A stretch of DNA of 64,000 bases from Bolinopsis microptera (Eukaryota; Ctenophora; Tentaculata; Lobata; Bolinopsidae): assembly GCF_026151205.1 (NCBI RefSeq), contig NC_087076.1, positions 6,982,902 to 7,046,901 on the forward strand. The letters run 5' to 3'. Both the position numbers and the translations under genes were made by a program. Numbering within the stretch: the stretch's first letter is position 1; each line of letters begins with the position of its first letter. This document shows positions 14,538-61,380 of the stretch, one piece after another. The notes below the pieces were generated by a model that was not told the DNA's origin, ran no database searches, and saw only the letters and a list, made by a program, of their open reading frames with translations.

Positions 14538-15397
14538 GCTTGTTCGCCTACAAGTACAATGACTGAACCAACCGTAGAAATTGTAACAGATGAAATTGGT
14601 GCCAGACTGTTAATTAATGAGCGTTTTAATTTAAAACTCTGTGCATTTAAAATTTAGATATTGATTGTAGTAGATCTGTCAATCAGCTCTACTTCGAGTT
14701 CTACATTCTAAATTTAATATAAATTTTGTATATTTTCTAGTTTTTAGAATTTTATCAAATCGGTTAAACCTATTTGTTATAAAGGGTGTATCAATTCTGT
14801 CTCAATTACTGGGGGAAGGGCCTACAAATTCCTTAAAGAGAGAAGCGAGTCCAGTAAACTTGGTAAAATAAAACAGCTCTCAGCTCTGTAAATGGTAAAC
14901 TGTAAACAAAGAGATGTTGCGCACGCACTGGTGATCCTTGATCAACTTGCTACACGTCGCGTATCCCTTTAGAGGGGTATATGATATCATTAGCAGCGCG
15001 TGTTCCGTAAGAGGTCTAACCTTATCTAGCTTTACAGAGAGAGCGGTTACCCAGCTCCCTTGCTCGCTTCTGCGTGCTATTAGTCTAACTCACTCTACAC
15101 TATAAGCCGAAGCGTGATATATTAATAAGCAGGACCGCTCTTTTGTTATATATAATAAACGTAGGATCTGTGTTATGATAATTGAAATTCGTGGTGTACG
15201 TAGTATAGGCGCCTCCGTGCTCCAAGATCAACCTCTCATTGCATTAACATAATAGCTTGAGTTTAAACGCTGATTCCGAATCACCCTCCATGACGTAGAG
15301 GGACTTTGTTTCGCTGGTTTTATTATAATTAGAAACTTGACCATGGTTCTAGCCCTGTTATATAACGGACTAGCTCTGCGCGCGCTACTAATTTACC

Positions 15398-15465
15398 TCT
15401 TGCCTCGGGCTAATAGTTCGAGAAGAAAGCGGCGCGCGCTACTTCGAAGAAATTTAGACGAGTAA
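15398..15465 (+). repeat. GC-rich repeat, copy 1 (inverted copy near 27805-27870)
   Basis: The core TTCGAGAAGAAAGCGGCGCG followed by CTACTTCGAAGAAATTT recurs as the reverse complement near 27805-27870, where it reads AAATTTCTTTGAAGTAGCGC then CGCCGCTTTCTTCTCGAA. It is shared mobile DNA of unknown class, rich in GCGC palindromes. Confidence 0.6.
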
Positions 15466-15542
15466 CATCCGTCAACGCTCAGCCTATCTGCTATCATTGC
15501 GCCGAATTTATATTTCATTTATGAACAATATAGCAATTGTTG

Positions 15543-15748
15543 TTGTATCGCGATGCGTTACTGTGCCGCGCCGCGCACTCAATGAGGTTTCTCACAGATC
15601 GGCAAGATGCACTACTGTGCCGCAAGATGAATTGACATCGTCAATTAAAGCTTGTTGATTCACGATGTCAATGCTTCGCATAGCTCGCCGATCTGCATAT
15701 GTGGTTGCGAGAAAATGCGCGGCGCGACCCAGTAGTGCATCGCGCTAC
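15543..15748. mobile_element. Inverted-repeat MITE with TGTAGCGCGATGC ends
   Basis: The left end TGTATCGCGATGCGTTACTG and the reverse complement of the right end TGTAGCGCGATGCACTACTG match, then stay similar inward through CGCGCCGCGCA. The interior contains the TTGATTCACGATGTCAAT module seen again at 16051, 28187 and 28797. No ORF. It belongs to the small TTG/TGT-ended family clustered at 27.5-29.1 kb. Confidence 0.65.
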
Positions 15749-16050
15749 AAAATCGTTGTGAACACAAACAAGAATTTGTGCGGCCCGTTGAAGCGGCAAA
15801 GTCAAAAGTCTTCCAACATCAGGGCCTTTTCACATTAATTTAAAAACTAATTGCATGAGATGAGCGATTTAGCGAAAGAAAAATAAAAGATTAAAATATA
15901 AATTTAGAGCCAGTTAATTTAATTGTCATTTGGTTACTTTTACTATTGACGGATGTTTTTTATTTTATTTGAAAGTTCAATTAATTAACATAAATATAAA
16001 TCAAGCGTTACATTTCAGCCATGCCACATGCAAAATTACAATGCCATATT

Positions 16051-16134
16051 TAGTTGATTCACGATGTCAATCCTTCGCAGATCGGTGAGGCACAGTGGTG
16101 CATCTCGCCGATCTACCGAAGGATTGATGCATAA
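16051..16134. mobile_element. 84-bp hairpin element, TTGATTCACG module (short form)
   Basis: It begins TTGATTCACGATGTCAATCC and ends GGATTGATGCATAACAA. The inner CAATCCTTCG pairs with CGAAGGATTG and GATCGG with CCGATC, so the unit folds on itself. The same left module forms the first half of the elements at 28187-28310 and 28797-29053. No clear target duplication. Confidence 0.55.
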
Positions 16135-18064
16135 CAACAAGACACGCGCTAAAGACGCGCATTTTCTGAGTGATATTAACGATAGCTTTAAATTCACTGA
16201 TGTCATTATTATTCAGCGTGTCCGGTAATAGTTTAAAAATCAGAAGGAGAAAACACATGTATAAATTACTAAAAAAGGAGTATTACTTTACAGGATTGAA
16301 TTTAAATATAGTCATAATAGATAAGAGAGGAATTTGTTTCCCTTTGAATCAATCGAACTAGATGAATTGTTGTAAATACTGAGATCAAACTATCAATCTA
16401 CAGGCTATCGTCAAACATGTTGAAAGGCGTCATCTTCAGTGACATAATAGATAAGAGTTTATTAACTATCATGCCAACTTTAGAGACGGTAACCACATTA
16501 AACTAAAGTTTTCCCAATCAAAATAAAGGGTTTATGCAAAATAAAAGGTCTATGCACTAGACTGAGAGACAATTAACCTTATGCAATGCAGGTTAGTATA
16601 ACTATAATATCGGACTGAGTTGAAATTTCTGAGAGCATGATACCCCAAAATAAATATATGCCTGTGTCTGGCAATACCGTTCAGATGGCTTCCGAACTTG
16701 TGCGGATAAGATAATATAACAAATACAAATAAACTATATAATAACAATCTGAAAATTAATGTATCAGTACAGATCTTATACTCGAAATCAGGCACTTTCA
16801 AAACATTTCTCTTAAATTATCTTTCTTAACACCGTTCAATTGTAACTTTAAATTAAAATATTATGATGATCCGGACGATGATAAATATTAAATGGTAATC
16901 GATCATCGGCAGATGGATAATCGTTAATTATAGGTGTGCATAATTATTATTACAACTGATTATATTTATGGATTTCGGCCTGTCGATGCTGGAAGCTGAT
17001 CAGCTAATCGTTAATCGTTACCATGTGACAAGAATAGTATGATGAACCTCCCAATCAGTATCTATGTATCAAAAGAAAATATTGATATAATTCAAATCGT
17101 CGGGAGCCCTTTTGAAACATCTCGAAGTTAGAGTGCAGAGTGCATGATTACTGATTATCAGCACGATTGGGTGAAACAAAGACGAAACCGTGTGTTGATT
17201 AGAATTAAAAGAGGAAGATATGTAGTGATAAATTGTGCACTCTTGCATTTAAGTTTTAATTGTTAGACTTGTTCGATGTAGGGCCTTTAATTTAACCTAA
17301 TACTAATGCAGTTACTTAATACTTGGTAAGTCTAGGGAAAACAGGTGCTAGTTGTCGGAAATGAAATGGAGTCTGTTCCTGATCGAAGTTACATGATGCT
17401 GATAGATTTGATGCAGCTCAGCACTCAGCAGCCACTGTCTTCAAATAGAGTGTTCCAGTTCTGCAGTCTCAAATTTTTTCGCCCAGCTTTTCTTTTCATC
17501 GTGGTTATAGAAGACAGACCTGAAGAAATACTAGTATAATGATAATTATATAGGTAACATGTCCAGAATGAGTAAAATTGTATTATCGGCAAATTTACTT
17601 ATGTGAAAACTCCCAACAGGGTGGCGCTGGCCCAGAAGTAACTGCACACAAGCAACCCTTTAATGATCACGCACGTAATTTGTGTGAAAATATGTAACTC
17701 ATTTAACGAAGTCAGTGAAAAGAACCTACTTTATTTACCAATGGCGATTTTTTGCTTGTGATGAAGTAGTCCTCGCAAATGTGAGATATGTATGTAGTTT
17801 GTTTTTAAAAGTAGGATTGTAGTCATAGTGGAAACTTTTCCCGTGCCATCTCTGCTGCTGAGTCATCCCAAGACTCTCCTAACCCGTTGAAGGAGGACCA
17901 ACTCCATGTCTCAGAGTATGGTTTGAAAAAACTTTGTTTGAATATTAAACTTGGCCTATACCGTGCCTTTGGTATGAGATCCCCTAGAAAGCAGCCCCCT
18001 ACAGAGCGTTAGATTAACCCTAAAATTCAAGAAAAAACAAGTATCACGAGATCAAGTCGCTGTG

Positions 18065-21000
18065 ATGTCCTGGAACATCCAGGACAGCACAGGAGACGGG
18101 TCTAACAAATTTGAAAATAGCGAATTTTTGTCAATCCTCAAACAAGCTAACATTCTTTGTCTCCAAGAAACAAAGAAGCAAGTTAAGATTGAAGGATACC
18201 TCTCTTTTAATAGCAACCGCAAAAATTCACGCTCAGGAGGGGTCTGCATTCTTGCTGAAAATGGCCTAAGAAAAGGTGTCTCTAGTGTGCTTTGTAATGA
18301 ATCTGATGACATTATTGTTGCTAAACTGGACAAGAACTTTTTTAAACTTGATTTTGACCTATTTTTGGTATGTTATTATATTAGCCCTGCATACTCGTCC
18401 TATGTCAAGAAGAATCCAGATTATACTGCTAATACCTTCTCTGCTCTTGACTCTATCTGTATCAGACTACGTCAAAAGGGAGAAGTTATTATGTGTGGCG
18501 ATGCAAATGCAAGAACTGGAAAACTCCCAGACTATATCCTTTCCTGTAATGCACCTGCCATCCATGACATCTATAACGACATTGGACTCGAGCACGACAT
18601 AGAAGAACCAAGAAATAATTCTGACCTTACAATATCTGAACCCCACTGCCAACACTTTCTTGACATGGTTATCAATAACCAACTCAAAATTCTTAATGGT
18701 CGTACCCTTGGGGACACCACTGGAAAAATGACCTGTCACAAATACAATGGAAGCAGTGTGGTTGACTATTTTGTAATCACCTCATGGGCAAGAGATCATG
18801 TAAACTCTCTCCAAGTAAAAGAGTTTACATCATACTCTGATCATTGTCCATTAGTCTTGAAACTCACTACATTTGAACCATTTGTCGCAAACTTCCAGCT
18901 CCCAGACTTTTCTAACTTTCCTTGTGGCTATAAGTGGGATAGCAACACCTCCCATTCACTATTTAAAAAAGCCCTTACCTCGCCCGAAATTATCAACAAT
19001 CTGGAAAGCATTGTGACAAATGAATTTAGCAGTACTCTGGAGGGCAATCACGAACTGAACGATGCAGTCATAAAATGTCTCCACAGTGCTGCTGATATAG
19101 CCTTAAAAGTGAAAAAGCCTCCCAAAAATTCTGCCCGTAAGAAATGGTTCGACCCACAAGTCAACTCCTCACGGCGGAACCTAAATAGGCTAGCAAACCG
19201 GCTTGGTAGTAAGCACTGTAACTGTATCCTCAGACGAGAATACTTTAAGCAACGCAACAAGCATAGCAATTTTGTAAACAGTAAGAAAGTAGCTTTCCTT
19301 AAGAAGTTAAATGAAGCTATAGAAGAAGGTCACATACTCGACTGGAAAAAATTTAAACGGCTTAAACAAGAACATGACACTAGCCCCTTACTTGACAAAT
19401 TTGATTTAGCTAGCTTCCATGACTTCTTTGCATCCCTTTATAAAAAACCAGACCAGGAGCCAGATCTCACTCACCACAATCACAAACATTACCCTGAACC
19501 ACCAGATCTGGATATCCTAAATAAGCTCATGTCAGAATCTGAAGTGACCTCTGCCATCAAAAATCTCAAAAAAGGTAAAAGTTGCTCAAACGACTTGATA
19601 TCCAACGAGATGCTTCAGAGCGTAACTCCGCTTTGTCTCAAAGCCATCCTCAAAAACTTCAACCACTCACTGGTCTCTGGTTACTATCCATGGCACACCA
19701 GCATCATTACTCCTATTTACAAGTCTGGCAACCCTTTCAGCCCGGACAACTACAGAGCAATAGCTGTTGGTAGCTGTATGGGTAAACTATTTTCTAGCAT
19801 CTTACTTGAGCGTCTCCTGCACTTCAAAAAGCTCTACTGCCCTGACCCAAAAGAACAACTAGGGTTCTCTAAGGGTGCTCAAACAAATGACCACGTTTTT
19901 ACCCTTAAGACAGTCATTGACAAATATACCAAGGTTAAGAAAGCTCGCCTCTATGCATGCTTTGTTGATCTAAGAAAGGCCTTTGACACTGTATGTAGGG
20001 ACCTCCTTCTGCACAAAATCACATGCCTTGGAATAACTGGAAACTTCTTCAATTGCCTAAGTGATATGTATAGAAACTCAATAGCTCATATAAAAATCTC
20101 CAAACTCTTGTCCCCTAATATTGACATTGGAAAAGGAACAGAGCAGGGACACCCCCTATCACCGGACCTTTTTAAAATCTATATCAACGACTTGTCATCT
20201 CTCCTGAAATCTGTTGGTGATTATCCTATTCTAGCTGACGTCCTAATATCACATCTGCTCTGGGCTGACGATCTTGTCCTACTTGCCCTAAGTCCCAAGG
20301 CCTTGCAAGACAATATAAACATCCTATTCGACTTCTGTAACTCTATGGGCCTTGAAGTAAACATTAAAAAAACCAAGATTCTCATATTCTGCCCTCCTAA
20401 AAGAAAACAATCCTATGAAACATTCATTTTGGGAGGCCAGCCCATCCAACACACCGAAAAATACTGCTATCTTGGCATTATATTCCACAGAAATGGATCT
20501 TTTACAGCAGCAAATACTGAACTGAGGGCCAAGGCTCTCCGTGCTCTCTATGGCCTCAAAGGCAATATCGTCAAAGATGCCCTCTCTCACCATTCCCTAA
20601 ACATTCTATTTGACTCTCTAATAAAACCGATACTGCTCTATGGCTGCCAAATCTTATGTCCTCACTCAAAAACCATGAGATACCTCTCCAAAACAGATAG
20701 CAAAGCCAACCCCCAGCATACTCTCAGGTACATCTCACAAGACCATTATGAAAGATTCCACCTTAAGTTTATCAAGTGGTCCTTGTCTGTCCATTCAAAA
20801 GCATCAAATATAGGCTGCTGGGGCGAAAGTGGGCGCCACCCCCTCTTCTTTGAAGCCTGCAAACTTGCAATAGATTTCTATAGTCGTCTTGAAAGCACTG
20901 AAAATGAACTTCTCTCCGCTGCATTTCACGAGCAGATTATGCTGGGCCTTCCTTGGTACACCAACATCTCTAATCTTCTCACCAAATATAACTTCCCCCA

Positions 21001-21550
21001 CTCATCCTCTTCAAAATCCAAGCTCTCTACCCAAATCAGTCACATGAGGGAAGAATTTGTGGATACCTGGAAATCTGCCAAGGCATCCTCACCTAAATTA
21101 GAATTCTACAATCAAATTAAACATGATTTTGAACCAGAAACATACTTAGGAGTGGTTAAGATCCCCGATGCTCGGAAAAGCTTAACAAGGTTTCGTATTA
21201 GCTGCCACAATCTTTACATTGAGAGGGGCCGTTACGAAACCCCCCTAGTACCAAGAGAACATCGATGGTGCACTTTTTGCTTTCTCAGCAAGGGGCTTAA
21301 GCCTATTGAGGACGAAATTCATGTTCTAACTGACTGTTTACTCTACTCCTCAGTTAGAGAAAAATTTAACTTCCATCCCAAAAATATTACTGACCTAGCC
21401 GGTTTGCTATCCGATAAAACACTAGACCCTACAAAATTTAATGCCACAGCAAGAGCAATCCATTCAATTCTCTCTGTGAACGAACATTTTACAGCCTACT
21501 ATAAGAGCCCAGATTTCCACTCAAATACTGGCCAATGCATAATGCTATAG
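18065..21550 (+). CDS. Non-LTR retrotransposon polyprotein: APE endonuclease + reverse transcriptase (intact ORF)
   Basis: A single 1161-residue ORF with ATG at 18065. The N-terminus is an AP-like endonuclease: SWNIQ, the catalytic-Glu motif LCLQETK, RSGGVCIL, GDANARTG and the terminal SDHCPLVLKL. The reverse transcriptase follows with YRAIAVGSCMGKLFSS, GFSKGAQTNDHVF, the catalytic FVDLRKAFD (about residue 634), GTEQGHPLSPDLF and LLWADDLVLLA (WADD at about 733-736; most LINE families have YADD or FADD). The C-terminus has a Cys/His patch (WCTFCFLSKG...HVLTDC). The protein nicks target DNA and copies its RNA into the break. No stop or frameshift interrupts it, so the copy is young. No ORF1 is obvious upstream. 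The 3' tail carries (TATCCTTG)n. Clade is probably CR1/L2-like, not certain. Confidence 0.93.
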   Translation: MSWNIQDSTGDGSNKFENSEFLSILKQANILCLQETKKQVKIEGYLSFNSNRKNSRSGGVCILAENGLRKGVSSVLCNESDDIIVAKLDKNFFKLDFDLFLVCYYISPAYSSYVKKNPDYTANTFSALDSICIRLRQKGEVIMCGDANARTGKLPDYILSCNAPAIHDIYNDIGLEHDIEEPRNNSDLTISEPHCQHFLDMVINNQLKILNGRTLGDTTGKMTCHKYNGSSVVDYFVITSWARDHVNSLQVKEFTSYSDHCPLVLKLTTFEPFVANFQLPDFSNFPCGYKWDSNTSHSLFKKALTSPEIINNLESIVTNEFSSTLEGNHELNDAVIKCLHSAADIALKVKKPPKNSARKKWFDPQVNSSRRNLNRLANRLGSKHCNCILRREYFKQRNKHSNFVNSKKVAFLKKLNEAIEEGHILDWKKFKRLKQEHDTSPLLDKFDLASFHDFFASLYKKPDQEPDLTHHNHKHYPEPPDLDILNKLMSESEVTSAIKNLKKGKSCSNDLISNEMLQSVTPLCLKAILKNFNHSLVSGYYPWHTSIITPIYKSGNPFSPDNYRAIAVGSCMGKLFSSILLERLLHFKKLYCPDPKEQLGFSKGAQTNDHVFTLKTVIDKYTKVKKARLYACFVDLRKAFDTVCRDLLLHKITCLGITGNFFNCLSDMYRNSIAHIKISKLLSPNIDIGKGTEQGHPLSPDLFKIYINDLSSLLKSVGDYPILADVLISHLLWADDLVLLALSPKALQDNINILFDFCNSMGLEVNIKKTKILIFCPPKRKQSYETFILGGQPIQHTEKYCYLGIIFHRNGSFTAANTELRAKALRALYGLKGNIVKDALSHHSLNILFDSLIKPILLYGCQILCPHSKTMRYLSKTDSKANPQHTLRYISQDHYERFHLKFIKWSLSVHSKASNIGCWGESGRHPLFFEACKLAIDFYSRLESTENELLSAAFHEQIMLGLPWYTNISNLLTKYNFPHSSSSKSKLSTQISHMREEFVDTWKSAKASSPKLEFYNQIKHDFEPETYLGVVKIPDARKSLTRFRISCHNLYIERGRYETPLVPREHRWCTFCFLSKGLKPIEDEIHVLTDCLLYSSVREKFNFHPKNITDLAGLLSDKTLDPTKFNATARAIHSILSVNEHFTAYYKSPDFHSNTGQCIML

Positions 21551-21714
21551 GACCTCAAAAATAGTATTATAAAACATTTCTATTTTATCCCTACACATTT
21601 GTAAATAACTAGAATTGTGTAACCTTAAATTATTTCAGAATTATAACTATTGTGAATTCAATAAAATAATTATCACTTTTGTATCCTTGTATCCTTGTAT
21701 CCTTGTATCCTAGT
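21551..21714 (+). repeat. LINE 3' UTR ending in a TATCCTTG tandem tail
   Basis: Short AT-rich 3' UTR after the stop, ending in about four 8-bp units of TATCCTTG (21679-21713). Short 3' terminal tandem repeats in place of poly(A) are known for CR1/L2-type LINEs. This marks the likely 3' end of the element. Confidence 0.7.
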
Positions 21715-22520
21715 CGATGTATAGCGACGGTAGTTTACCAGCAGCTCCCTGTACAAATAGAAATGTGGTTTTTATATAATATTACTAGTTAAATTATTGA
21801 GTACAATGCAGGAATAAAAAAATGTGTCTTAAATGTTTTATATTAAATGTGTTATAATTATATTAACCACCTTATATTCGTATAATATGTACTCATAAAC
21901 AATAATAGTCCCAATTGTTTTTAATTGCCTATAATTTAAACCTTCTTATTAAATAATTTAGATGACTGTGTCTGATCTAAAATTGCACGAGAAATAGATA
22001 AAATTAGGTCTCAGACAGAACTCGACCGGGATACCGGCGCAGCCGGAATACCGGCTGGTATTTGGCGATTTTGTACCGGTATACTGGTACCGGCCGGGAT
22101 TTTGGTTTTAGCCGGGATTTTTCCAAAATAAATTCAGTTTTTCTCAACGTTAATTTGAGTCCAAAATTAACAAATCTGTGAACATTTTCCTAAAACATTT
22201 TGATGAAATCATTGAACAATGGAGACTGGAGTCAATCTATATTTAACATAATCATGGGTGTACGAATTATGGACTTCTTCATAAGTCTTTCTGACTTATG
22301 ACTTAATTATTGTGACTAAGTGTCACGGCTCACGGTCTTGTGTTACCGAGGGACAAGTAAAACAGAGTTCTCCGGGTAAAGACAGCATTAATAAATGCTA
22401 TTCAGTATTCATCCTATTCAATTATTCAGGTAAGGTGATGTAAACTGTAAAGTGATAAGCTCCAACGTCAAACACCATGTTCAATTAAATAAGTTTAAGT
22501 AACCAATACCAGATCACAGG
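21715..22520. other. AT-rich spacer with a GGTACCGG-type repeat patch
   Basis: Nothing coding. 22025-22125 is rich in ATACCGG and CCGGTA palindromes (gaccgggataccggcgcagccgg...), a repeat style related to the ACCGGG arrays 2 kb downstream. It is probably part of another transposon end. Confidence 0.4.
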
Positions 22521-22542
22521 ATTTTTATAGTTACGGAGACTG

Positions 22543-22932
22543 TTGGAAACGATGCAAACCAGGATCGGACTCCTATCAGAAATAGTCGACCACGGTCCAG
22601 CCTCCCTCAAACTCAAATGCCCTACCACTACCCCAGACCACATCCACCTCTTCAGCCAGGAACAGCGCTCCCACTATACCACTACCAGCAGTTCCTACCG
22701 CCTCAGAGGATACACTGCACGTGCCCGTTATTCCTCATGCCTCGTCTTAAATGTCCAGTCCATGAATCCTAGTGCATCAAGTGCGAGTAGATGGGAAGTG
22801 CCAAAAATCTCAGCTCTTATTCAGGAGAAATCCAAAAACCACTCGTTACCGTTTATTGCACTTACGGAAACGTGGCTCAAGTCCTACATGTCAGACAAAT
22901 ACAAAATGTGCATCACCTCTTTCTCCTGCTGA
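22543..22932 (+). pseudogene. Truncated LINE: N-terminal APE endonuclease fragment
   Basis: The 129-codon reading frame carries VLNVQSMNP...KISALIQEKS and LPFIALTETWL, the first conserved blocks of a LINE APE endonuclease (the ETW Glu is catalytic). It ends in a stop after SDKYKMCITSF, and the rest of the endonuclease and the RT are absent. It differs from the intact element at 18065 (LTETWL against LQETKK), so it is a different family. It is a dead fragment. Confidence 0.7.
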
Positions 22933-23323
22933 GCAGAACCTCCCCCTTAAAAGTAAACAAATCTGCATCGCCTCCCAACGACAATCCAGATATATTAAGC
23001 AGCAGAGACAATCATTTAAGGAGACTGTGATATCTATCAGGATCATGATTATACTGCCGTGAGAACTCAGCACTTCAGGATGAATCATATAATATTTGGT
23101 TTTCTCGATTTCATTCATATTTAGACAGAAGTCCGTGTAGATAATTGGTTATAGAATAATTGGATATAATTTTATGCGAAGTTGTGTCTGCGAAAATATA
23201 CGTGTGAACTGGTCATCCCGCAAATGCTGAAAAAGTAGATGTTACCTATCATAAAATAACCGCTCGCACCGTACACGACATCGAGTTGTGACTGCGTTTA
23301 CAAATTCCTTATCATAATGATTT

Positions 23324-23337
23324 GTTGCCATGGCAAC
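23324..23337. promoter_or_regulatory. Perfect palindromic X-box (RFX-type site)
   Basis: GTTGCCATGGCAAC is a full two-half-site palindrome matching the RFX X-box consensus. It lies in a gene-poor stretch with no gene close by, so function is uncertain. Confidence 0.4.
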
Positions 23338-23584
23338 CGAACTCCATCGGAAGATCGGCCTGTAAGGTATAATCATGATAATACACAGTATCAAAACATT
23401 GCCATATCATAGCAATTAGCAACATTCCAGAGATTAGATTATGTGTGTGTAAGAAAATGTATGTTATAGTATTATACAGTCTGCTAGAACATTCCGTTTA
23501 CACATGGTAAAATAATAATCATGGTGCCTGGTGGCCGATAACAACTTGTTTAATTTATCTCCGAATTACACACAAATTTCTGAA

Positions 23585-23841
23585 CGTTTCGTAGACTTAA
23601 ATCAATTACAGAGGGTGTGGCTATTGGCCAGCCCCTCTATTTCACTATTATGGTTGAAACTATAAGAATACAGATTATATTATTACAGTGATTTTACAAA
23701 AGTCGAAACAGTAAACACCAATTTGTAGGATAGTTTAAATCACACCAAAATTGGTCCCAGAATGCAATGAAATCTGATGGCGTCTTTTCAGTGAAAAAGA
23801 GGCCACACCCTCTGTAATTGATTAAAGTTTACGAAACCTTT
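23585..23841. mobile_element. ~257-bp MITE with ~40-bp inverted ends
   Basis: Left end CGTTTCGTAGACTTAAATCA, then ATTACAGAGGGTGTGGC. The right end reads GCCACACCCTCTGTAAT, then TGATTAAAGTTTACGAAACC, the near-perfect reverse complement. No ORF. Target duplication unclear. Confidence 0.75.
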
Positions 23842-24107
23842 AGAAAATGAGTTATATAACTTGCAACTTAAACTAGGATAAATTGAGTATTTATACTCAA
23901 TTTATCTTAGTTGCATGAGTAATATATATATACTCTCATTTTTTCAGAGCAAACGTAATTTAAATGGCCAAACACAATTCAATAAAATTTGGCTCGATCC
24001 GATTATCCAAACTATCAAATAAATGCGAAAATGAACCTTCTTTTGAAAAAAATGAACACAAATATGTTTCGATTTGACAAATTTCTCGAACCAGTGGTGG
24101 TAGTAAG

Positions 24108-24938
24108 CAGGAGGTGACCGGGACATGATTTCAGGCCTGACCGGGACCGGGACCGGGACCGGGATACAAAATGTGACTTGACCGGGACCGGGACCGGGAC
24201 CGGGACTGAGATTATCAATTTACCGGGACCGGGACCGGGACCAATAATTTCTGGGATTTCTATCTTACCGGGACCGGGACCGGGACCGGGACCAACAATC
24301 CAATTTTACCGGGATGACCGGGATGACCGGGACCAAAACTGGTATTCTCATATTGAAAGCTGCAACTTTCATTTACATTATAATTGAACAATTTGAATAA
24401 GTAATAACTAGAATATTAAATTAGAAAAAACTAGTAAAAACCCGTCAATATGGGGCATGGGCCTAATGTACTACACCAATAATGTTCATGTACTGATTAC
24501 TCAAGTTCACCCTCATTCCTCATTCCTCAATCAATGATCCCTCAAATTATTCAACAGTTTCATTCTCCAATTCCAATTGACAATTGGGCGTAGCCCGAGT
24601 TGAAAACTTGATGTTACTTTGCACTTATGAGTTATGTAACGATATTAGTTACCTAAACTTGTTTAGCAATTTTAAACATTGTTTTATTTGGCTCAGAGGT
24701 TGTTTAAAGATGAAATTCACAATGAATGAAAGTAAAAACTTAAAATCACAGTGAATGAAATTATGTAAAAGATCCCGGTCAAAATCCCCGCTAATTTGAG
24801 TGATTGACCGGGACCGGGACCAAGAATCCTGAATTAACCGGGACCGGGACCGGGATCATAAATCAGCATTTGACCGGGACCGGGACCGCGATGAAAAATG
24901 TGACTTGACCCGGTTCCGGGAATCCCGGTCACCTCCTG
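24108..24938. mobile_element. hAT-like MITE carrying ACCGGG hexamer arrays
   Basis: It begins CAGGAGGTGACCGGGA and ends TCCCGGTCACCTCCTG, so the ends are perfect inverted repeats of at least 16 bp. GTAGTAAG lies at 24100-24107 and again at 24940-24947 (one extra A intervenes), giving an 8-bp target duplication. CAG...CTG tips plus 8-bp duplications fit the hAT superfamily. Both subterminal regions are arrays of GGGACC hexamers (about 24133-24330 and 24803-24915), interrupted by short AT words. The centre is AT-rich with no transposase. Confidence 0.8.
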
Positions 24939-24947
24939 AGTAGTAAG

Positions 24948-27780
24948 TCATACCAGAACAAATTATTTCAATTGGGCACTCAGTGACTGAGCTATTAAGG
25001 CCAACGTTTGCACACTGACTTTTGGCCCACCCTGTATATTTATAATATACGGCTGGAAAAAATGTAACTGGATATCTGCCACAATGCTGCTATTATTAAG
25101 GTTAAAGTAACATTTAGCACATAAAGAAGTCTGGTTTGCTAGGTTTTAATTGGTCGTATAATAACAAATAAAAATGAGTTAAGACTACAAAAACGGTCAA
25201 TAGAACCTAATTATAATACCTGTATCGAGAACTCGACTTGAATGCACTGATAGCATTGGTACTAACATTCTATCAAATTATGTCATATCTTGAGACTTGA
25301 TAGCTGCCTGAAACAGTTTTGAGTCAACATTATCGTGATATTCTAGAAATTGAAACCAATTCTCAACTTTAAAAAAGCAGATTTCAATAAATGCCATAGA
25401 ATTAAATTCTACCTTTTTAAATTCTAAGAATTTGTTGATTTATTAAAATTCTGTCTCAATTAATATATAAGGGTACATGCAATGTAGTTCGACACGCACT
25501 GTAGACTCACTTATTGGGTTCGTGCTAGATGCTGTGTACGCCACCCTCTTAACCCCCTCTATGGTGAAGATGAGGATGGTAAGTGCAAGTATAGTAGTGT
25601 GAGGAGAGGATGGGTATCATTTAGCACATTTTTGCTGTAGGTGTAAAGTAGCTCTTAGTCAAGGAGTATATAAATGACTGCACGACAAGGTTCTGCAACA
25701 GATCTCTGAACATGTTATCTTGTGAGCGCCGAGTGAACACTTATAAGAACAAGGCCAGCGATGAAAGACAGTATCATTGCTGGGAGGAAAAAAGCAGGTA
25801 CAGACGACCGAAAGGAGTCGTGGTTTGGGATCCTGAGTGGGTCTCGATATTGGATAGTGCTCTTATATATCGGACCTTATGATATTCTCAAGGTCACCAA
25901 GACGGCACAGTCTTATGGCGGGAGGTAACGGTACCATCTAAAGAACAGATTGCTGAATCATACAAGTAAAAACTCTACCGGTACAGCAGTCTTACAGCAG
26001 ACTGAGATTCAAGCGAAAGAATTGTGCTGTTATAATTATGCGGTTAAAGTTCTAGCACCGGGAGTGGTTGTTCACGGTTTGGAAAGAGCTGAGTAGGCTA
26101 GTACGGGATAGAAGGGAAGAAGCAGCTCACTGTTCCAGATGGATCTACTTCTTATCAAGGAAGAAGGAGTGGTAGGTATAGTAAGGAAGATTGGAGCCTG
26201 AGAGTTAACTTAACATCTAGAGGTACCACAAACTTTATCTCGTCGCCAATTGCGAGCTTTAACGGGTTTCCTCAAGTGACTCGATGGTTTAATTGTGACA
26301 AATCATGATACGAACTTTGATGAACCCATAATAGTATAGTGCAATAATACTATGATAGTATTCTCATAAGTTCTACCCTTGCAACCGAGTACAATGTACA
26401 TACTAAGTGATATCAAGCTGCAATCTAAAATTTATTAATTGAATCTCAAAATAACTTCAAATCTTACGTACCTAACAATTGCGACATCGTTTGTCGTTGG
26501 AAGTGAGAAATAAAATACATTAAATTTTAATCCAATTCTGCGAGAGAAGATTTGCCCAGACAGCTGACAAGAATGTATTACCATACTTCCTGTAAATGTG
26601 GTAGTTATTAGGTCATATCAAACTTGGAAATTATGTCAAAGTTTTTCTCAGTCTCTGGTGTCAATCACCAGTAGAGTGCCCAGCCGCACCAAAACAACCT
26701 GCGATTTTTACGTGGGAAACATCGTATAATACACATGCTATACACTCTAGTTTCATAGCAGCTACTGATATCATGCGGCAGTATTAATAAGCATACAAAT
26801 TCAGCGCAAAAAATTGTGAAGACGACACAAATTCATGCGGGATGTTAATAAATGTGTCCATGTTGAACTCAAACTCCGACAGAATAATATATCAAATCGG
26901 ATATATTATTATTAATCAAATGGTATCTGCTCATGTTCCGTCTATATAAACTACAAAACTTAATAAATTAGTGAAGTTCTGAAACAAAGATCACGACTAG
27001 GTTTTATCAAAATTGAAAAGAAAACCGATCGAAGTGCACTAGAGAGACAGTTTAAGTTTAAAGGGTCATCATTACTAAAATCTCTTCCTAGCTCCTAGCA
27101 ATCAAGTTGTTAATCCTAGTTTTACACCTAAACAAGTACAAAATTACAGCATTACAATTTGAAATTTTTCGATATCCAGCTCAACATAAAACTTCGATAC
27201 CAATAATGGGTACATACCGATGATCGGTGTTCGTAAATATTTGATTATTTATAGTATTGAACTTGAAGATTAAAATCTTCCTAATTATGTAAGAATAACA
27301 AAAGGAAACACGTACTAGTGTGCTGTTACGAAAAACAACTATTTAATAAAATAAATGAACGGCATTCGAATACAAAATTAAAAATGCAGATACCAACGTA
27401 ATCGACAGACAAACTCAATAAATGAAGATTTCGTCGTGAAACGAGCTATATATACAGCTATAACGTAGCGCTCGACTCCAGTCTGAACCAAAATTAAGTC
27501 GCGTTCGTAGGAAATTGACCACCAGCTGCTGGTGGTTCGAATGTTGGTTTGCACACTACTGTGGTTGCGAGAAGCATTATTTGATGCGCGCGCGACCCAG
27601 TAGTGCATCGCGCTACAACATATTTAGCTATATACTAATTGATAAATGGTACTGTAATATTGAATATAAGTTGCTTAATGTTTGGCCGGATGAAAACTAA
27701 CTAAAAGAAAAAAATAATCTTGATTACATAATAATTAATTCGGCTGAACTAACACATAGCAAAAGCCACAATAACGTTGG
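24948..27780. other. Gene-poor spacer
   Basis: Mostly AT-rich. A more balanced stretch (25490-26230) includes a TATA-like site and a 56-codon ORF, listed separately. A partial copy of the right half of the TTGATTCACG...CGCGCTACAA element lies at about 27562-27618. A perfect hairpin (ACCACCAG, loop CTG, CTGGTGGT) lies near 27520. Nothing else recognised. Confidence 0.4.
25712..25882 (+). CDS. Possible small ORF (56 aa) behind a TATA box
   Basis: ATG at 25712 opens 56 codons (MLSCERRVNTYKNKASDERQ...), rich in Arg, Lys and Trp, ending TGA. A TATA-like GTATATAAATG lies about 45 bp upstream and the local base composition is less AT-rich than the flanks. No family is recognised and no signal peptide is seen. 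A possible donor (AGCAG|GTACAG) lies inside, so this could be the first exon of a spliced gene, or a chance ORF. Confidence 0.2.
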   Translation: MLSCERRVNTYKNKASDERQYHCWEEKSRYRRPKGVVVWDPEWVSILDSALIYRTL

Positions 27781-27804
27781 GCCGTCAAAAATAGTCGTCA
27801 AAAT

Positions 27805-27890
27805 TTCTTTGAAGTAGCGCGCCGCTTTCTTCTCGAAATGGCCCGATGGCAAGTGCTACGAAGTAGTGCGCGCCGGGCCAGACCATTAAC
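27805..27890 (-). repeat. GC-rich repeat, copy 2 (inverted relative to 15398-15465)
   Basis: The reverse complement contains GGCCATTTCGAGAAGAAAGC, then GGCGCGCTACTTCAAAGAAATTT, matching the 15.4 kb copy. An adjacent block (AGTGCTACGAAGTAGTGCGC) is another GCGC-rich palindromic piece. Confidence 0.55.
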
Positions 27891-28018
27891 AATGGTCAAC
27901 TTTTACTACATGACAAAGGGTTTTTATGAAATTTACTCAGATTTTATTGAATTTTTGAGGGGTTTTTACTCAGATTTTATTTTTAATTTATGAATTTAGT
28001 AATTCATTAATCGAACCT

Positions 28019-28123
28019 TTGTCATACGTTGTATGACCCGCCGCGCACGAAGTGCGCGGCTCCCCCTGTAGCGTCGAAGACGCTACATAGTGAAACGACC
28101 GTGGGGGTCGCAACGTGATACAA
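28019..28123. mobile_element. 105-bp triple-hairpin element B, copy 1
   Basis: It starts TTGTCATACGTTG and ends CAACGTGATACAA. Three perfect hairpins sit in a row: GTCATAC-gtt-GTATGAC, GCCGCGCAC-gaa-GTGCGCGGC and TGTAGCGTC-gaa-GACGCTACA. The last two have 9-bp stems with the same GAA triloop. Flanks TCGAACCT (28011-28018) and TAGAACCT (28124-28131) match at 7 of 8 positions, a diverged 8-bp target duplication. No coding capacity. Confidence 0.8.
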
Positions 28124-28186
28124 TAGAACCTCATGCTTAGACGATTACCATTAATAAATTTAGTTTTATGTATTGTTTGAATGAAT

Positions 28187-28310
28187 TTGATTCACGATGT
28201 CAATCCTTCGCAGCTCGGTGAGGCACAGTGGTGCATCTTGCCGATCTACCGTGTGGTTGCGAGAAGCATTATTTGATGCGCGCGCGACCCAGTAGTGCAT
28301 CGCGCTACAA
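28187..28310. mobile_element. 124-bp element A, copy 1 (8-bp TSD)
   Basis: It runs from TTGATTCACGATG to GCATCGCGCTACAA. The direct repeat GAATGAAT sits at 28179-28186 and 28311-28318, an exact 8-bp target duplication. The left half pairs with itself (GATCGGCAAGATGCA with the upstream CTCGGTGAGGCACAG); the right half contains GATGCGCGCGCGACC and GTAGTGCATCGCGC. Non-coding. Confidence 0.85.
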
Positions 28311-28542
28311 GAATGAATTTTCCACTCTTTATTTCGAAAGGGATAGGTGTTTTAATGAAAAATCATCCGATTCGGCAGCAAAACTTTACATATACTGGTC
28401 AACTTAACATTTGCATTTGGTCGGTATATATACTAAATGTTCAGGACACAAAAACAAAATCTCCAGAGGCGCCAAAATAGTTCCAACTTAAAAAGTATGA
28501 TGATATGAAAATATAAATATTATAGGCTACAATGAGCATTTT

Positions 28543-28620
28543 TACTGGGCCGCGCTCAGCCTGTCATTCCGCCTAATCTCTATTATGTTAATGAACATAA
28601 TAACCTGGGGTCGCCAGGTA
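28543..28620. mobile_element. 78-bp mini-element C, copy 1 (11-bp TSD)
   Basis: TACTGGGC...CCAGGTA is flanked by ATGAGCATTTT at 28532-28542 and 28621-28631. It contains the near-perfect hairpin TATTATGTT/AACATAATA and a small CCTGG...CCAGG hairpin. A second copy of exactly the same length lies at 60269-60346. No pol III box or poly(A) tail is evident. Confidence 0.8.
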
Positions 28621-28796
28621 ATGAGCATTTTAGTAACAAATAGTATGATAGATCTGAAATTTAAAAAATAAAATCCCTAAAAATATTTACACCCCAAGTT
28701 AAAAATATAAATACTTTATTTTTAAAACAGTATCAAATAAGGTGGTTGATCAGGCACTTGTGTCATTACGACGACGTCGTTATATCAAGTCAAAAT

Positions 28797-29053
28797 TTGA
28801 TTCACGATGTCAATCCTTCGCAGCTCGGTGAGGCACAGTGGTGCATCTCGCCGATCTACCGAAGGTGGTTGCGAGTTGTCATACGTTGTATGACCCGCCG
28901 CGCACGAAGTGCGCGGCTCCCCCTGTAGCGTCGAAGACGCTACAGGGTGAAACGACCGTGGTGAAACGACCGGCCGTGGGGGTCGCAACGTGATACAAGT
29001 TGCGAGAAGCATTATTTGATGCGCGCGCGACCCAGTAGTGCATCGCGCTACAA
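28797..29053. mobile_element. 257-bp element A, copy 2, interrupted by element B
   Basis: It has the same ends as the copy at 28187 and an exact 8-bp duplication GTCAAAAT (28789-28796 and 29054-29061). It is longer only because a complete element B is inserted inside it (28876-28998). Outside that insert it is nearly identical to copy 1, so both insertions are recent. Confidence 0.85.
28876..28998. mobile_element. 123-bp triple-hairpin element B, copy 2 (nested in A)
   Basis: TTGTCATACG...GTGATACAA is inserted in element A and flanked by GTTGCGAG at 28868-28875 and 28999-29006, an exact 8-bp target duplication. It keeps the three hairpins of copy 1. The extra 18 bp come from local duplication around GTGAAACGACCG near its right end. 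Confidence 0.88.
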
Positions 29054-29061
29054 GTCAAAAT

Positions 29062-29500
29062 ATTCCCCAAAATAATTAAAAGACGATTCCCGATCGAAAA
29101 CGTTTTGGTAGAAAAAGTTTCTCAAGTTACATAAATATCATTGGAAATGCAATTTTATGGATAGAATCAATAAATAAAGCTCACAAGTAAATCCCAAAAC
29201 AAAGTAACACACCCAACAATGGTTGAAATGTGATACATCCAAGCAGTCTAGGTCGACAATAATATCATGAGCTAATCTAAAACTAGCTCCAATGTTCATG
29301 TTACCAGACAGGTTCTACCAATCCAAAGAGTTAAGTAGGTTTCCATTCAGTCAGTAGTAAACAGTGTCTAGCACTGGTCGTCCTAAGAGGGACTCCCCAT
29401 TTATTACAGGCCTGGGTAAGGCCGCGTACATACCAATGGATAGAGCATTGGCCGTCTAATATAGCTATAATATAGTCCCTATATATAGGGACTAGACTCC
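29062..29500. other. Spacer, no feature seen
   Basis: AT-rich unique-looking sequence. A short palindrome at about 29459-29492 (ctatataTAGGGACTAG...) is the only structure noticed. Confidence 0.3.
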
Positions 29501-29504
29501 CCAG

Positions 29505-45100: not shown

Positions 45101-48100
45101 GATGGTTTCTAACTCATCTCTCTTGTTAATGTTAGGTTTGAACTTCAAAATAAGCATTGCTTCTGCAATCTTTCTTCTAGCTGTGTTGCTTTCTGTTTTT
45201 AAAATCTCAAATTCTAAATTGGGTTCTGACCCTCTATGTAAACTGTTATAACGAATAGCAAAAGCTTGACTAGTGTTAGAAGGAGTTAAAGGAAATTTAG
45301 CATATCTTAGGTGCTCTCCGAGCCTATCATGTGCCCTCCTGCACGTCTCACCAATATAAATATTATTACAGATTTTAAAGGTAATCTTATACACAACGTT
45401 CTTCACCTCACAATCTTTATTTTCAGTTTTACAGGAGTTAATAATACAGGTTCTCTTATCATACGGTCTGTTATTGCACACAATATTTCTTAGTTTTCTA
45501 GCTGGGGAAAATATAACTTTAATAGGTAAATTATTCTGTTTAATATGAACAGAACAACGTCGAGTAATCTCCTTTCCCTAATAAGAGCATTTTTACTTGT
45601 CGCAACAACCGGGATAAAGATAATTTTACCCAGAATACATTACAACAATGCGACTCATAAATAATACTCCAATCCGGATTTTACATGTATTATATGTTGT
45701 TGTTATTAATATTCCCTCCTGGATAGGCACCAGAAAGACACATATTTTCAGTGCTTAGAGAAACAAATCATATATCGTGTCCTGAGACTTATGTCTACAT
45801 TCTACATTGTATACGTTAGAGTAAAATGTACAAGGTGTACACAGTGTACAAAACATCTTACATCAACTATCCGTAGTCACATATCTGATACTGAGATACA
45901 ACTACCTCCTAGACGAAGCAATGTTTCAGTAACTGTACGTGATGGTCTTTCTCAAGCAAATAATCGAGCAAGCTGGACATCAACCAATAAACTACGGTCA
46001 AATTATTAACTTTAAGACACATGACATGCTGTGTTGGTTATTATTCATCATTCAAATGGTCACATACTGGTAACCTACTAGTCACATACTGGCCCTTCAA
46101 ATGGTACTTACATACATATTTTATTACATTTTTACCACAAACATGGTTACGTTACAAAAGCTGTGCTGTTAAACTAAGTAGAGTTAAACTGAGTAAAATA
46201 TTTTTTATGTGGCGGAAAATTCATGCTGGTTTTATATTCACAAGCTTTCTGATATTACAATAATTGTGCGAGGTTAAGATTGGCTAATTTTACAAAGTTA
46301 ACATTAACAAGCAAGTTACCGCCTATTTTCTGTCAGTCTGGACTGAAATGTAAAAGCTCTTACTTCTTAACTGAAACTGTGAGTATAGTATGCTACTTGC
46401 TACAAAATGCGCAACAAGTTCCAAGCTAGATATTTAAAGGGTCGGCAAAAATTTACTTAACGTTACGCAATACGGGATGAACCTCATTTTGATGTGCAGT
46501 ACATACATCTAGATTGTGTTCATTATGGCCCACCTTTAGCTAAATTTGCGCTTAAAAATCTATAAATTTTTGCTAAAATTCATAATGAAAACCGAAAAGA
46601 TAAGATCAATACCTGTATCAAAATGAAATCACGACGAAGAATTTTCGTAAAAGTAGTGTGAGTTTTGAATGATAAGGTAGATACTAGACGGTATAGAATG
46701 GGTCCTGCCGCAAGCTATAAAATAACAACAACCGTTGAGCCACCAAGACCACAAGGGCATACCATCATTGCTTCTCTAATCCTGCATACAGAACACTTTT
46801 CACTACTACAATACCATTAGTTGAGGTAAGGTAAACCGTGTAATTGCAGCTGTCCCAATACCATTAGTGAACTAGTAGCTCACTGCTTACTTGCCCAGTT
46901 AAGAACGTATGTAAAACATATTACATTATACTGTCGTTCTAGAGAGCAAAGAAATATCAGAGTTACATACTCTGTCTGTGTTATAAAGATTAAAGAAGCT
47001 CTAGCTCAAGCAGGTAAAGAATGCATAAATCACAGTATCAAGTATCAACCCAAGATGTTTCAAGTACCGTGGATTCACGAAATCATGCTCTATCCCTCAA
47101 TGTGATGATTCCGGCCATTTTTATGCCCAAGATAAGCACTTAGCTCCAATCAGAAGCTAATATATCTTGTATTTGATAAGAGACATCGCAAAATCCATGT
47201 TAAACGGCGATATAAATATACCGCTTTTTTTTGCTCTCACGAGTAGAGATTGACGCACCAAATATTGTTTCTAGAAATGTTGATGGATTTGAATTAAGCT
47301 TACTACATAAAGAGGAGAACTCAAGCACGGATAAATTTATGATAGGAGAAAAGGCAGGTATTTTCTTGGCAAGCATTTTCTAGTTCCGTCACGTCCCCGC
47401 CGGTTATTTTGATAGTTAAAAAATAAAAATGCCAACGGTGCCCTGGAAGATTTGGATATCTGAGTTTGAGGAAAAGTTAATTTTATATTCATAAACAACA
47501 GTTTGCAGAGTACCAATGGGTTGGATCATTGGGTTGCCTTGATTGACGATGTCAATCCCTCGCGGCCCGCAGCTCTACCAAGAACGAGAATCATGTATTG
47601 ATGCGCGATGTGGTTGGGACTGGGTACTGCAGTGACCTACTGACTTTCTCTTAAATCAGGTTGCGCCATAGGGTTAGGACTGGGTCTCTGGATGTATCAA
47701 AATTATTTTGATTATATAAAACTCTACCGGGTTTTAGTAAATTGTGATGGGTCGCGAAGAGATTAGTGATAGTATACCTATTGTCTGCAGGCAGAAAGGT
47801 TGCTCCTCCCAGCCCCAGGACCCATCCTCCAGACATGTGATAGTGTGAGAGCCAGTGTTCACGTGACCAGACCTACACTTCACTTCCAGGGTACTTCCAG
47901 GGATCGGAGGATACTCAGGGTCAAGGTCCGTGTTTGGAAACGTTGGGGTCTTGCATATCACTGTAAGAATGTGTTTAAAATAAGGGGAATTCCAGAGTTT
48001 TTACATGACCTGTTTGACTTATAACGGTCCTTTTTAAGAACAAGAACAAGAGCTTCTACTAGACATTAGAAAAATGGCCCCATTTCTAATACATAACCTT

Positions 48101-58986: not shown

Positions 58987-60268
58987 ATTGAGACTTTTCC
59001 AGAGTATTAATAGAGACTTTTTGGCCACATGTAAGCTGGCATGGAACCGGCTGCGGTTTATAACTGAAATTTCAAACACAAAATACAAAACTTTCTTTGG
59101 TATACAAGCTAGCTGTAAACCTAAAACGTGTATTTAGTTAATTTTAAGATGGTCTGGACTTAATCGTAGATAGTTCTTTTGTCCCTTGTCACTTCCTTCA
59201 CGTCATGACTAATGACACATTTATATTTTATGTCTAATTTCACTCTATTCGCTAATTTCTTGAAATTTCTGTATACATTTTCGTTTGCCCTTTTCTTGTA
59301 AATCAATCGCTGGATAAAATGTTATTATCAAACTCACCAAACGATAGCATTCTTTTTTACGACTTATCTATAAATACTGTTAAATGTTCTTTGTTTATGT
59401 TACATTAACATAATATGTCATGTGTAATGTGCATGCATCAACATAACCAATTCTTTTGTACACTCTTATCTTGTTTGTTGATTCTTTATAGTTGTATTGT
59501 GTAGAATATTGTTATCAGATAACTAAAAAATGTTTTGATGAAAGGATGTATTTTAATTGTTACCACTGGCTTAAAATTTAGACTTAATCCAATGTAAACA
59601 ATCTTTAATCTAGGCTTCAACTAGCGCAGTGCTCATCCTGAAACAGGTCTAAATTGAATGTATGCAGACTTTTTCGTAGATAGTTCTTTTGTCCTTTGTC
59701 CCTTCCTTCACGTCATGTCTAATGACACATTTATATTTTATGTCTAATCCCACTCTATTCGCTAATTCCTTGAAATTTCTGTATACATTTTCGTTTGCCC
59801 TCTTGTAAATCAATCGCTGGATAAAATGTTATTATCAAACTCACCAAACGATAGCATTATTTTTTACGACTTATCTAATACTGTTAAATGTTCTTTGTTT
59901 ATGTTAAATTAACATAATATGTCATGTGTAATGTGCATGCATCAACATAACCAATTCTTTTGTACAATCTTATCTTGTTTGTTGATTCTTTATAGTTGTA
60001 TTGTGTAGAATATTGAACTATCAGATTGCTAAAAAATGTTTTGATGAAACTGAAAGGATAGATGTATTTTAATTGTCACCACTGGCTTACAATTTAGACT
60101 TAATCCAATGTAAACAATCTTTAATCTAGGCTTCAACTAGCGCAGTGATCACCCTGAAACAGGTCAAAATTAAATGTATGCGGAGCTTTTTCCTATAATT
60201 TATAACCAATTTCCTATAATTTATAACAATAATATCATTATCAATATCATAAGTATCCGACAATTTAT
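58987..60268. repeat. ABCB1 3' flank with 511-bp tandem duplication
   Basis: 59166-59676 and 59677-60190 are two direct copies (from CGTAGATAGTTCTTTTGTCC to GTATGC(A/G)GA), differing by scattered substitutions and short indels. The duplication begins 180 bp after the ABCB1 stop and may be part of its 3' UTR or just downstream. No ORF. No canonical AATAAA was noticed in the first copy. Confidence 0.85.
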
Positions 60269-60346
60269 TACTGGGCGGCGCTCAGCCTGTCATTCCGCCA
60301 AATCTCTATTATGTTTATGAACATAATAGCCTGGAGTCCCCAGGTA
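60269..60346. mobile_element. 78-bp mini-element C, copy 2
   Basis: Identical in length to 28543-28620 and differing at only a handful of positions. Here the GGCGG...CCGCC hairpin and CTATTATGTT-tatg-AACATAATAG are perfect, and the tips read TACTGGG...CCAGGTA. Flanks show only a weak GACAA match, so the target duplication is not clear at this copy. Confidence 0.75.
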
Positions 60347-61380
60347 AGGACAAACGTGCTGTTGAAAAATGATCTGCAGTCTGCACCTCTAGCAAGCTCG
60401 GCAGGCGGTATAAGGTTTTCTGGGCGAAAGAGACGAGAGTTCAGAGTTCATAGTGATCAGCTGCAGAAGAAGAAGCAGAAGGAAGAGGGGAGGGAGGTTG
60501 AATTTCTTCTAAATCTAACCAGAGCTCCCTCCCGCGCTTGCATTCACGACAGCAGTACTGACTACTGATGCATGATGGATTTTAAGTAATATTTCAATTT
60601 CAATGAGATCACTTTCGCGATTATAACTGCAAACCGAGATACACTTACATTGTACATGAAATTTTGTTCATTTTTTGTGGTCTTATTCTTAATTTTGTCT
60701 TAGTATCCACATTTCAACTATAACTCACGTCTCACAGAGAATATGTACAATATAGTTTAGGCTTCCTACCTACCTATGTTGAGATTCGTTAAGCCACCCC
60801 ACCCTTACCTTTCATATAAAGTTATTCTTATTCAAAAATATTCATATCTGACCAATCTATGGACCAATTAAAGCTGTAAACTTTGGTGCGTATGACCAAG
60901 CTACAAGTACAAGTACAGGTAGTGGTACTGGTAGAGCACGCGTAATCTCGGTTTTGGTGTGATTTGGCAAAATTGGACCAAAAATGCACCGGGTCTTAGT
61001 TTGTTGGTCCATCTCGAAAACAAGTTCACAAAAATCAGAGTGAACCCATTCACCATTGATGTCTCACTTCCCACGTTTCTTTATGAACAACACTGATTCC
61101 CGATCAGGAAGTTATGGTTGACTGATATTCAAGTTAGTGGCATAAAGGGCCAGGGGAACTAACGAGCCGTATTATGAAGCGAACACGTCATTTCAAACTT
61201 ATGTGTGAGAGACAAATATGCCAAATTTCATTGGATCGTTTCAAAATTAAAATGATCGAATATTTACTGTACAAACTATGAGCAAAATACAAAGTATCCA
61301 GCAATATATCACTTAATCTGGGGATGCAGATGCCAAAAAATGTCACCATAGACTGAAGACGATCCTATTACAGTCCTGCG
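60347..61380. other. Spacer, no supported gene
   Basis: The 85-codon ORF at 60311-60568 starts inside the mini-element and shows no family signature. The rest is AT-rich; AGTACAAGTACAGGTAGTGG (60905) is a small degenerate repeat. Confidence 0.3.

Follow-up and report, generated by a model that had tools for sequence, protein, structure and literature searches.

Probable MITE families with a common palindromic end design, and a long element carrying the ends of one of them, in the ctenophore Bolinopsis microptera

The small elements with TTG...CAA tips found around positions 28011-29061 of the window are very likely MITEs, that is, non-autonomous cut-and-paste elements whose two ends would be recognised by a transposase outside them and which insert at sites cut with an 8- or 9-bp stagger. 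The window is the whole stretch of DNA that was analysed, 64,000 nucleotides of contig NC_087076.1 of Bolinopsis microptera, and unprefixed positions refer to it. The original prediction had taken them for mobile non-coding DNA with TTG...CAA tips, 8-bp duplications and many copies, and the copy counts, duplications and nested insertions reported below bear this out. Within 28011-29061 we found the following features.

28019..28123, + strand: element B copy 1, 105 bp, flanked by TCGAACCT and TAGAACCT, a 7/8 match
28021..28037, + strand: left terminal palindrome of B copy 1, 7-3-7 with loop GTT, exact
28040..28060, + strand: hairpin 2 of B copy 1, 9-3-9 with loop GAA, exact; stem retained in most typed B copies
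28067..28087, + strand: hairpin 3 of B copy 1, 9-3-9 with loop GAA, exact; intact in part of the B copies only
28187..28310, + strand: element A copy 1, probable MITE of 124 bp, target duplication GAATGAAT at 28179-28186 and 28311-28318
28189-28205 and 28292-28308: terminal palindromes of A copy 1
28542..28621, + strand: family E element, 80 bp, target duplication TGAGCATTT
28797..28875, + strand: element A copy 2, left part, target duplication GTCAAAAT at 28789-28796
28876..28998, + strand: element B copy 2, 123 bp, within A copy 2, target duplication GTTGCGAG at 28868-28875 and 28999-29006
28999..29053, + strand: element A copy 2, right part, opening with the second GTTGCGAG, target duplication GTCAAAAT at 29054-29061

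The two A copies and two B copies lie where they had been predicted to lie; the family E element was missing from the earlier list of small elements in this stretch. The insertion of B into one A copy was also read correctly. GTTGCGAG stands on both sides of B copy 2, and A copy 2 minus B and one GTTGCGAG equals a plain A copy (L019) but for one indel (one extra base), so that the nested pair supplies its own empty site. B copy 2 has additional interior sequence compared with B copy 1. The three perfect serial hairpins that had been described for B, two of them with GAA loops, are exact in B copy 1.

The genome scanned was the 264.65-Mb assembly, of which contigs C1-C13 make up 258.1 Mb (97.5%). 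On first look, the search for copies that had been suggested yielded rough counts of 2,025 candidates belonging to A and 1,531 to B, which are not few. Among the matches listed, 40 of 43 for A were full-length with 97-100% identity, as were 44 of 45 for B with 88-100% identity. The loci used below are mostly the best-scoring copies with their surroundings, and the sample therefore favours young copies; L001, L025, and L034, which overlap with the window or with L026, were excluded from the counts.

Target duplications were counted after merging shifted readings, and only elements with an exact duplication were taken in. Two A rows were left out, L008 1501-1961 (its left end is that of another row) and L037 1824-2005 (it encloses another element). 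A has a duplication of 9 bp in 21 copies and of 8 bp in three; the 8 bp that had been given for A is found in both window copies, whereas the usual length is 9 bp. In B, all 22 duplications found are of 8 bp. The numbers of 9-bp and 8-bp duplications are 7 and 3 in A2, 5 and 2 in C, 2 and 4 in D, 2 and 0 in E, and 2 and 0 in F. Not all are exact: among the query copies, an exact 9-bp duplication flanks 15 of 19 for A and an exact 8-bp duplication 17 of 18 for B; the other four and one, respectively, have none, and the flanks of B copy 1 match at 7/8 positions.

When elements were called by their ends plus a duplication, the loci and the window together held 76, compared with 0, 0, 1, 0, and 0 in five block shuffles; most of these loci had been fetched because they hold A or B. 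A chance origin of the elements was rejected on these numbers. Ten of 77 testable elements are nested within an element of another family, and in these the joined flanks match the host across the junction. The empty-site check that had been suggested thus returned a related empty site for 10/77 elements. By our reading, five of the ten nested sites overlap a terminal palindrome, yet the terminal palindromes make up about one third of an element; an insertion preference for the hairpins of other elements therefore gets no support.

A and B are accompanied by further small families, A2, C, D, E, and F, which have TT(G/A) tips and 8- or 9-bp duplications; in most families the elements are 60-185 bp long. 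Families A-F are clustered in the genome. They cover 14.7% of the sequence around A (19 loci) and 14.8% around B (18 loci), about 4% within each figure being the query copies themselves, compared with 0.2% of 68.8 kb at 20 loci chosen for transposase and receptor genes; in the window the coverage is 1.9%. The observed/expected ratio of CpG is 1.58 in B, 1.33 in A, and 0.79 in the window. Members of these families elsewhere in the window are listed here.

15378..15475, - strand: family C fragment
15543..15648, - strand: family A2 element
15655..15750, + strand: family A element, short variant
27792..27899, + strand: family C element without the left tip
47539..47576, + strand: A left-end fragment, 84%
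60268..60347, + strand: family E element, 92.5%, flanks without an exact duplication

One end design is common to A/A2, B, C, D, E, and F: TT, a 7-bp arm, a 3-nt spacer, and the complementary 7-bp arm. For the tests of this design, one representative was chosen by the analyst for each family end. Across 13 family ends, 72 of 91 positions pair at the design centre, compared with 18-26 of 91 at eleven other centres. With the two ends that resemble the A left end left out, the remaining 11 ends form 59 of 77 pairs; arm shuffles gave a mean of 28.7 and a maximum of 48, and none of 20,000 reached 59. At six of the seven paired positions, the 11 ends use three or four different Watson-Crick pairs, while the outermost is G-C only. 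Pairing is kept while the sequences differ between families, which is covariation between families. The original prediction had proposed selection for folded or palindromic DNA; this proposal is supported at the element ends, with 72/91 pairs across families, and not for the internal GAA hairpins.

The two ends of a family are not equally well formed. Usually, one is near-perfect and the other degenerate (the F left end pairs at 2/7 and the B right end at 4/7), and a perfect palindrome is therefore not needed at both ends. The inverted repeats between the two ends of an element are poor, at 7-10 of 13 positions. An F copy (L019) carries at its right end the same 20 bases as an A copy (L008) carries at its left end, as if the families had exchanged ends.

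A search for an autonomous partner with the same tips had been suggested. For A, a long partner with such tips lies in the window itself, though it shows no transposase.

16054..27618, + strand: long A-ended element, an 11,565-bp copy of the parent form of A, target duplication CATATTTAG at 16045-16053 and 27619-27627
17830..21702, + strand: LINE inside the long A element, with endonuclease and reverse transcriptase, open frame 17978-21550

In this copy, the 5' half of A begins at 16054, preceded by CATATTTAG, and the 3' half occupies 27560-27618, again with CATATTTAG behind it. The LINE is not present in the copies of the long element on contigs C6 and C3. The C6 copy aligns in four blocks of 96-98% identity and has a right tip shortened by about 18 bp; the C3 copy measures 7,995 bp and has AGCTCCGGC on both sides. 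A LINE copy that begins within the LINE open frame (window 20407-21712, 99%) was seen at L011/L121.

A 4,941-bp query from the interior of the long element gave 28 scored places (2,243 candidates), whose main pieces are mostly 99-100% identical; six of these places span the whole query and 14 carry a 1.24-kb tandem duplication. Eight further long copies were read at their ends. In six, both A tips are present and the flanking 9-bp duplication is exact; of the remaining two, one is without the right tip, and the other has its left tip outside the stretch read. To judge from this near-identity, the long element is recently amplified. Near-identical long copies without long frames include one of 6.8 kb (L012:1963 to L120) and one of 8.0 kb (L138:33-8027).

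The 126-bp A copy at L003 consists of the first 67 bp and the last 59 bp of the 7,995-bp C3 element (67/67 and 59/59 identical). The exact match to the left end of the C3 element is 64, 68, and 69 bp long in other A copies and 52 bp in A copy 1 of the window, where there is an inner difference; at the right end, the match is 58-59 bp where measured. These alignments show A to be an internal-deletion derivative of the long element. The varied junction lengths may reflect more than one deletion event, or a single junction that changed later. A longer parent with the same ends was found for A only; B shows just a 684-bp variant.

Outside the LINE, the longest open frame reaches 125 aa in each of two copies without the LINE, and in the window copy 133 aa. 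Pfam searches with ten frames from outside the LINE returned just two sub-threshold rows (E 0.065 and 0.13), and the 4,941-bp interior, searched as six read-through frames, had no match at E 0.05. A frame with LPFIALTETWLKSYMSD resembles, in our reading, the remnant of a LINE endonuclease. By these searches the long element appears non-coding, small spliced exons being possible. Its near-identical copies, the absence of long frames, and the lack of a Pfam match point to a long non-autonomous element that moved recently.

Among the matches listed for the genome, transposases comprise 58 Merlin, 88 MULE, and 150 hAT (366 candidates); none of the MULE matches lies inside the long element of the window. 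We read 10 MULE, six Merlin, and four hAT loci and could resolve the tips in 6/20 (four MULE, one Merlin, and one hAT). All six begin with GG, GA, or CA, not TT: the Merlin tips are GGCAGTCTACAAGA and GGCAGTCTAC (L043), the hAT tips CAGGGGTCG (L069), and the tips at the four MULE loci begin with GG or GA, with duplications of 8 or 9 bp. TT-palindrome tips were not recognised at any of the 10 MULE loci read, four of which have resolved tips. The MULE elements at L046, L047, L048, and L050 have inverted repeats composed of short tandem repeats, for example CGACATCTGTCCGAAAG and CGACAATTGACCCCC. The models for P elements (PF21787), which make 8-bp duplications, and for KDZ and DBD_Tnp_Mut had no matches in this genome, nor in the control genomes.

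A transposase gene was also sought beside element ends. For B-left ends, we read the 56 occurrences of TTGTCATACGTTGTATGAC that have a base other than C behind them (five as loci and 51 in 50 short stretches); for A-left ends, TTGATTCACGATGTCAATC has 68 such occurrences, of which 40 were retrieved and 39 proved long enough to read. A few hundred bases beside each of the 56 B-left ends and 39 of the 68 A-left ends contained no transposase gene; this search covered the ends that lack a following C, most ends having one, and it misses autonomous copies that share more of the MITE end. Three odd ends were traced for 4.3-7.5 kb; one closes as the 684-bp B variant and two enter simple repeats. At L180/L114 (C12:4.26 Mb), a B-type left end leads into another interior, which holds a GC-rich hairpin with a GAA loop, and then into simple repeats.

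MITEs such as mPing/Tourist, Stowaway, and the mosquito MITEs are short, non-coding elements of high copy number with inverted ends and target duplications. The elements described here are like them in all these respects and in the origin of A from a longer element. They differ in that the end-to-end inverted repeats are poor while each end is a 17-bp palindrome, and in that several unrelated interiors carry one end design.

The known superfamilies fit the swarm to different degrees. Members of the hAT superfamily have CAG or TAG tips and a strictly 8-bp duplication. The 8-bp duplications of family B are alike, whereas the resolved hAT copy has the tips given above and A has mostly 9 bp. The TT tips of the swarm do not fit hAT, and neither do the 9-bp duplications in 21/24 A, 7/10 A2, and 5/7 C elements; 9 bp is also found in 2/2 E, 2/2 F, and 2/6 D elements. 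Merlin elements make 8- to 9-bp duplications, as seen here, have GG-type tips, and are present in the genome. The tips of the one resolved Merlin copy are unlike the TT tips of the swarm; these TT tips do not fit Merlin, and neither does the long element interior, which has no Pfam match. MULEs make duplications of 8-11 bp, usually 9. The 8- to 9-bp duplications agree with this (the four MULE loci here show both lengths), and there is a loose tip likeness, GTANCRCGW. In contrast, the resolved MULEs begin with GG or GA and have tandem repeats in their inverted repeats, whereas the tips of A and B are TT, and the interior of the long A element is without a Pfam domain. The duplications and the tip likeness weakly favour MULE, and we regard the driver as probably a DDE transposase, either a MULE or one related to MULEs.

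It is possible, if rather unlikely, that the driver instead belongs to an unrecognised transposase superfamily with TT plus a 7-3-7 palindrome as its hallmark, unrelated to MULE, Merlin, or hAT. Every small family has the end design, as does the long parent, none of the six resolved MULE, Merlin, and hAT tips fits it, and the P and KDZ models match nothing (nor do they in the control genomes). However, the loci read were few (10 MULE, six Merlin, and four hAT, with 6/20 tips), and a TT-ended subgroup of a known superfamily may have been missed. An extended form of this idea, in which such a superfamily reads the 7-3-7 palindrome two bases from the tips and thousands of CpG-rich palindromes seed binding sites for ctenophore DNA-binding proteins such as CTEP1/2, seems to us improbable. 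CTEP1/2 are reportedly methylation-sensitive tethering proteins at Mnemiopsis loop anchors.

For the preferred cut-and-paste reading, the mechanism would run as follows. A transposase made elsewhere would recognise both ends and excise the element, and insertion at a staggered cut leaves the 8- or 9-bp target duplication that the copies display. The small elements would be mobilised in trans and, since the long element appears non-coding, so would the long element, from which internal deletion has given rise to A. The terminal palindrome (TT, then 17 bp) is the putative binding site for a transposase dimer. The centres of its two half-sites are separated by 10 bp, roughly a single helical turn, which would place the dimer on one face. 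With this spacing, no hairpin extrusion is needed and the palindrome could act as double-stranded DNA.

Alternatively, the palindromes could be recognised as folded single strands, as in IS200/IS605-type or REP/REPIN elements, the movement of the latter being attributed to an enzyme from outside the element. We consider this very improbable. The terminal palindromes stay paired across families, and as single-stranded DNA B folds strongly (z -5.47, with 0/200 shuffles equal); in contrast, the folding of A as a whole is ordinary (z -1.37, with 20/200 equal), and many B copies have a disrupted hairpin 3. To our knowledge, IS200/IS605-type and REP/REPIN systems make no target duplication, whereas 8- or 9-bp duplications are the rule here. 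Bacterial REP/REPIN sequences (PMC3733652, PMC3116915) resemble the present elements as many small palindromes. Unlike A and B, they reside in bacterial hosts and are not known to make target duplications.

The internal hairpins of B were compared among copies. Hairpin 2 was typed in 35 of 43 distinct B copies, the other eight lying outside the pattern used. The loop is GAA in 18, GA in 10, and GG in two; three copies have one-sided changes and two have longer arms. Hairpin 3 occurs in 29 variants, of which 12 fold without the stem (some perhaps shortened by the search pattern). The covariation check that had been suggested for the GAA hairpins turned out against them: there is no compensated change in hairpin 2 among the 35 typed copies, and hairpin 3 has a single compensated pair, at L004 (TATCGTC...GACGATA versus TAGCGTC...GACGCTA). 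Selection on the internal hairpins as the main story was dropped, with hairpin 2 uncompensated and hairpin 3 often broken. Under cut-and-paste movement, the GAA palindromes may be by-products or extra binding sites and would not be folded RNA. The length changes of B concentrate directly behind hairpin 3. This hairpin has grown in the B copies L006:387-677 (a tandem array) and L031:709-833 (a much longer stem); the growth and the length changes look like slippage or template switching at the hairpin.

A role as transcribed RNA under selection for its fold, for example in small-RNA precursors or in retroelements resembling SINEs, is extremely unlikely and was rejected: RNA could form these hairpins, but window positions 15000-30000 have no Rfam match at E = 1 or below, ARAGORN (bacterial code) found no tRNA gene in the window, both ends are fixed, A derives by internal deletion from a long element whose tips it shares, and hairpin 2 is without compensated change in the typed B copies.

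The original prediction knew of no named family of this kind, and no matching family or description was found in the literature searched, which consisted of papers, without Dfam/Repbase consensus sequences. MITEs are a known kind of element; what seems new here is the end design, together with the families themselves and the parent element. One end design over different interiors offers a direct route to the transposase, as a protein that binds TT plus the 7-3-7 palindrome, and an A MITE together with a near-identical 8-kb parent gives a view of MITE origin within a single genome. For Mnemiopsis, sections of PMC12221973 describe loop promoters rich in DNA transposons and loop anchors that carry a GC-rich motif with two CpGs. 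Since the loop promoters are described there as rich in DNA transposons, CpG-rich elements like these are candidates to check in Mnemiopsis loops.

A long G run lies in the window at about 29895-29920. Elsewhere in the genome, glutamate-receptor genes form clusters at C12:11.78-11.81 Mb, with long intron-free frames, and at C3:15.86-15.94 Mb. Among the matches listed for the glutamate-receptor channel model, 10/32 lie in open frames of at least 900 codons. When two of these receptor genes were compared with solved structures, Mnemiopsis ML032222a was the best match for one and a lower-ranked match for the other.
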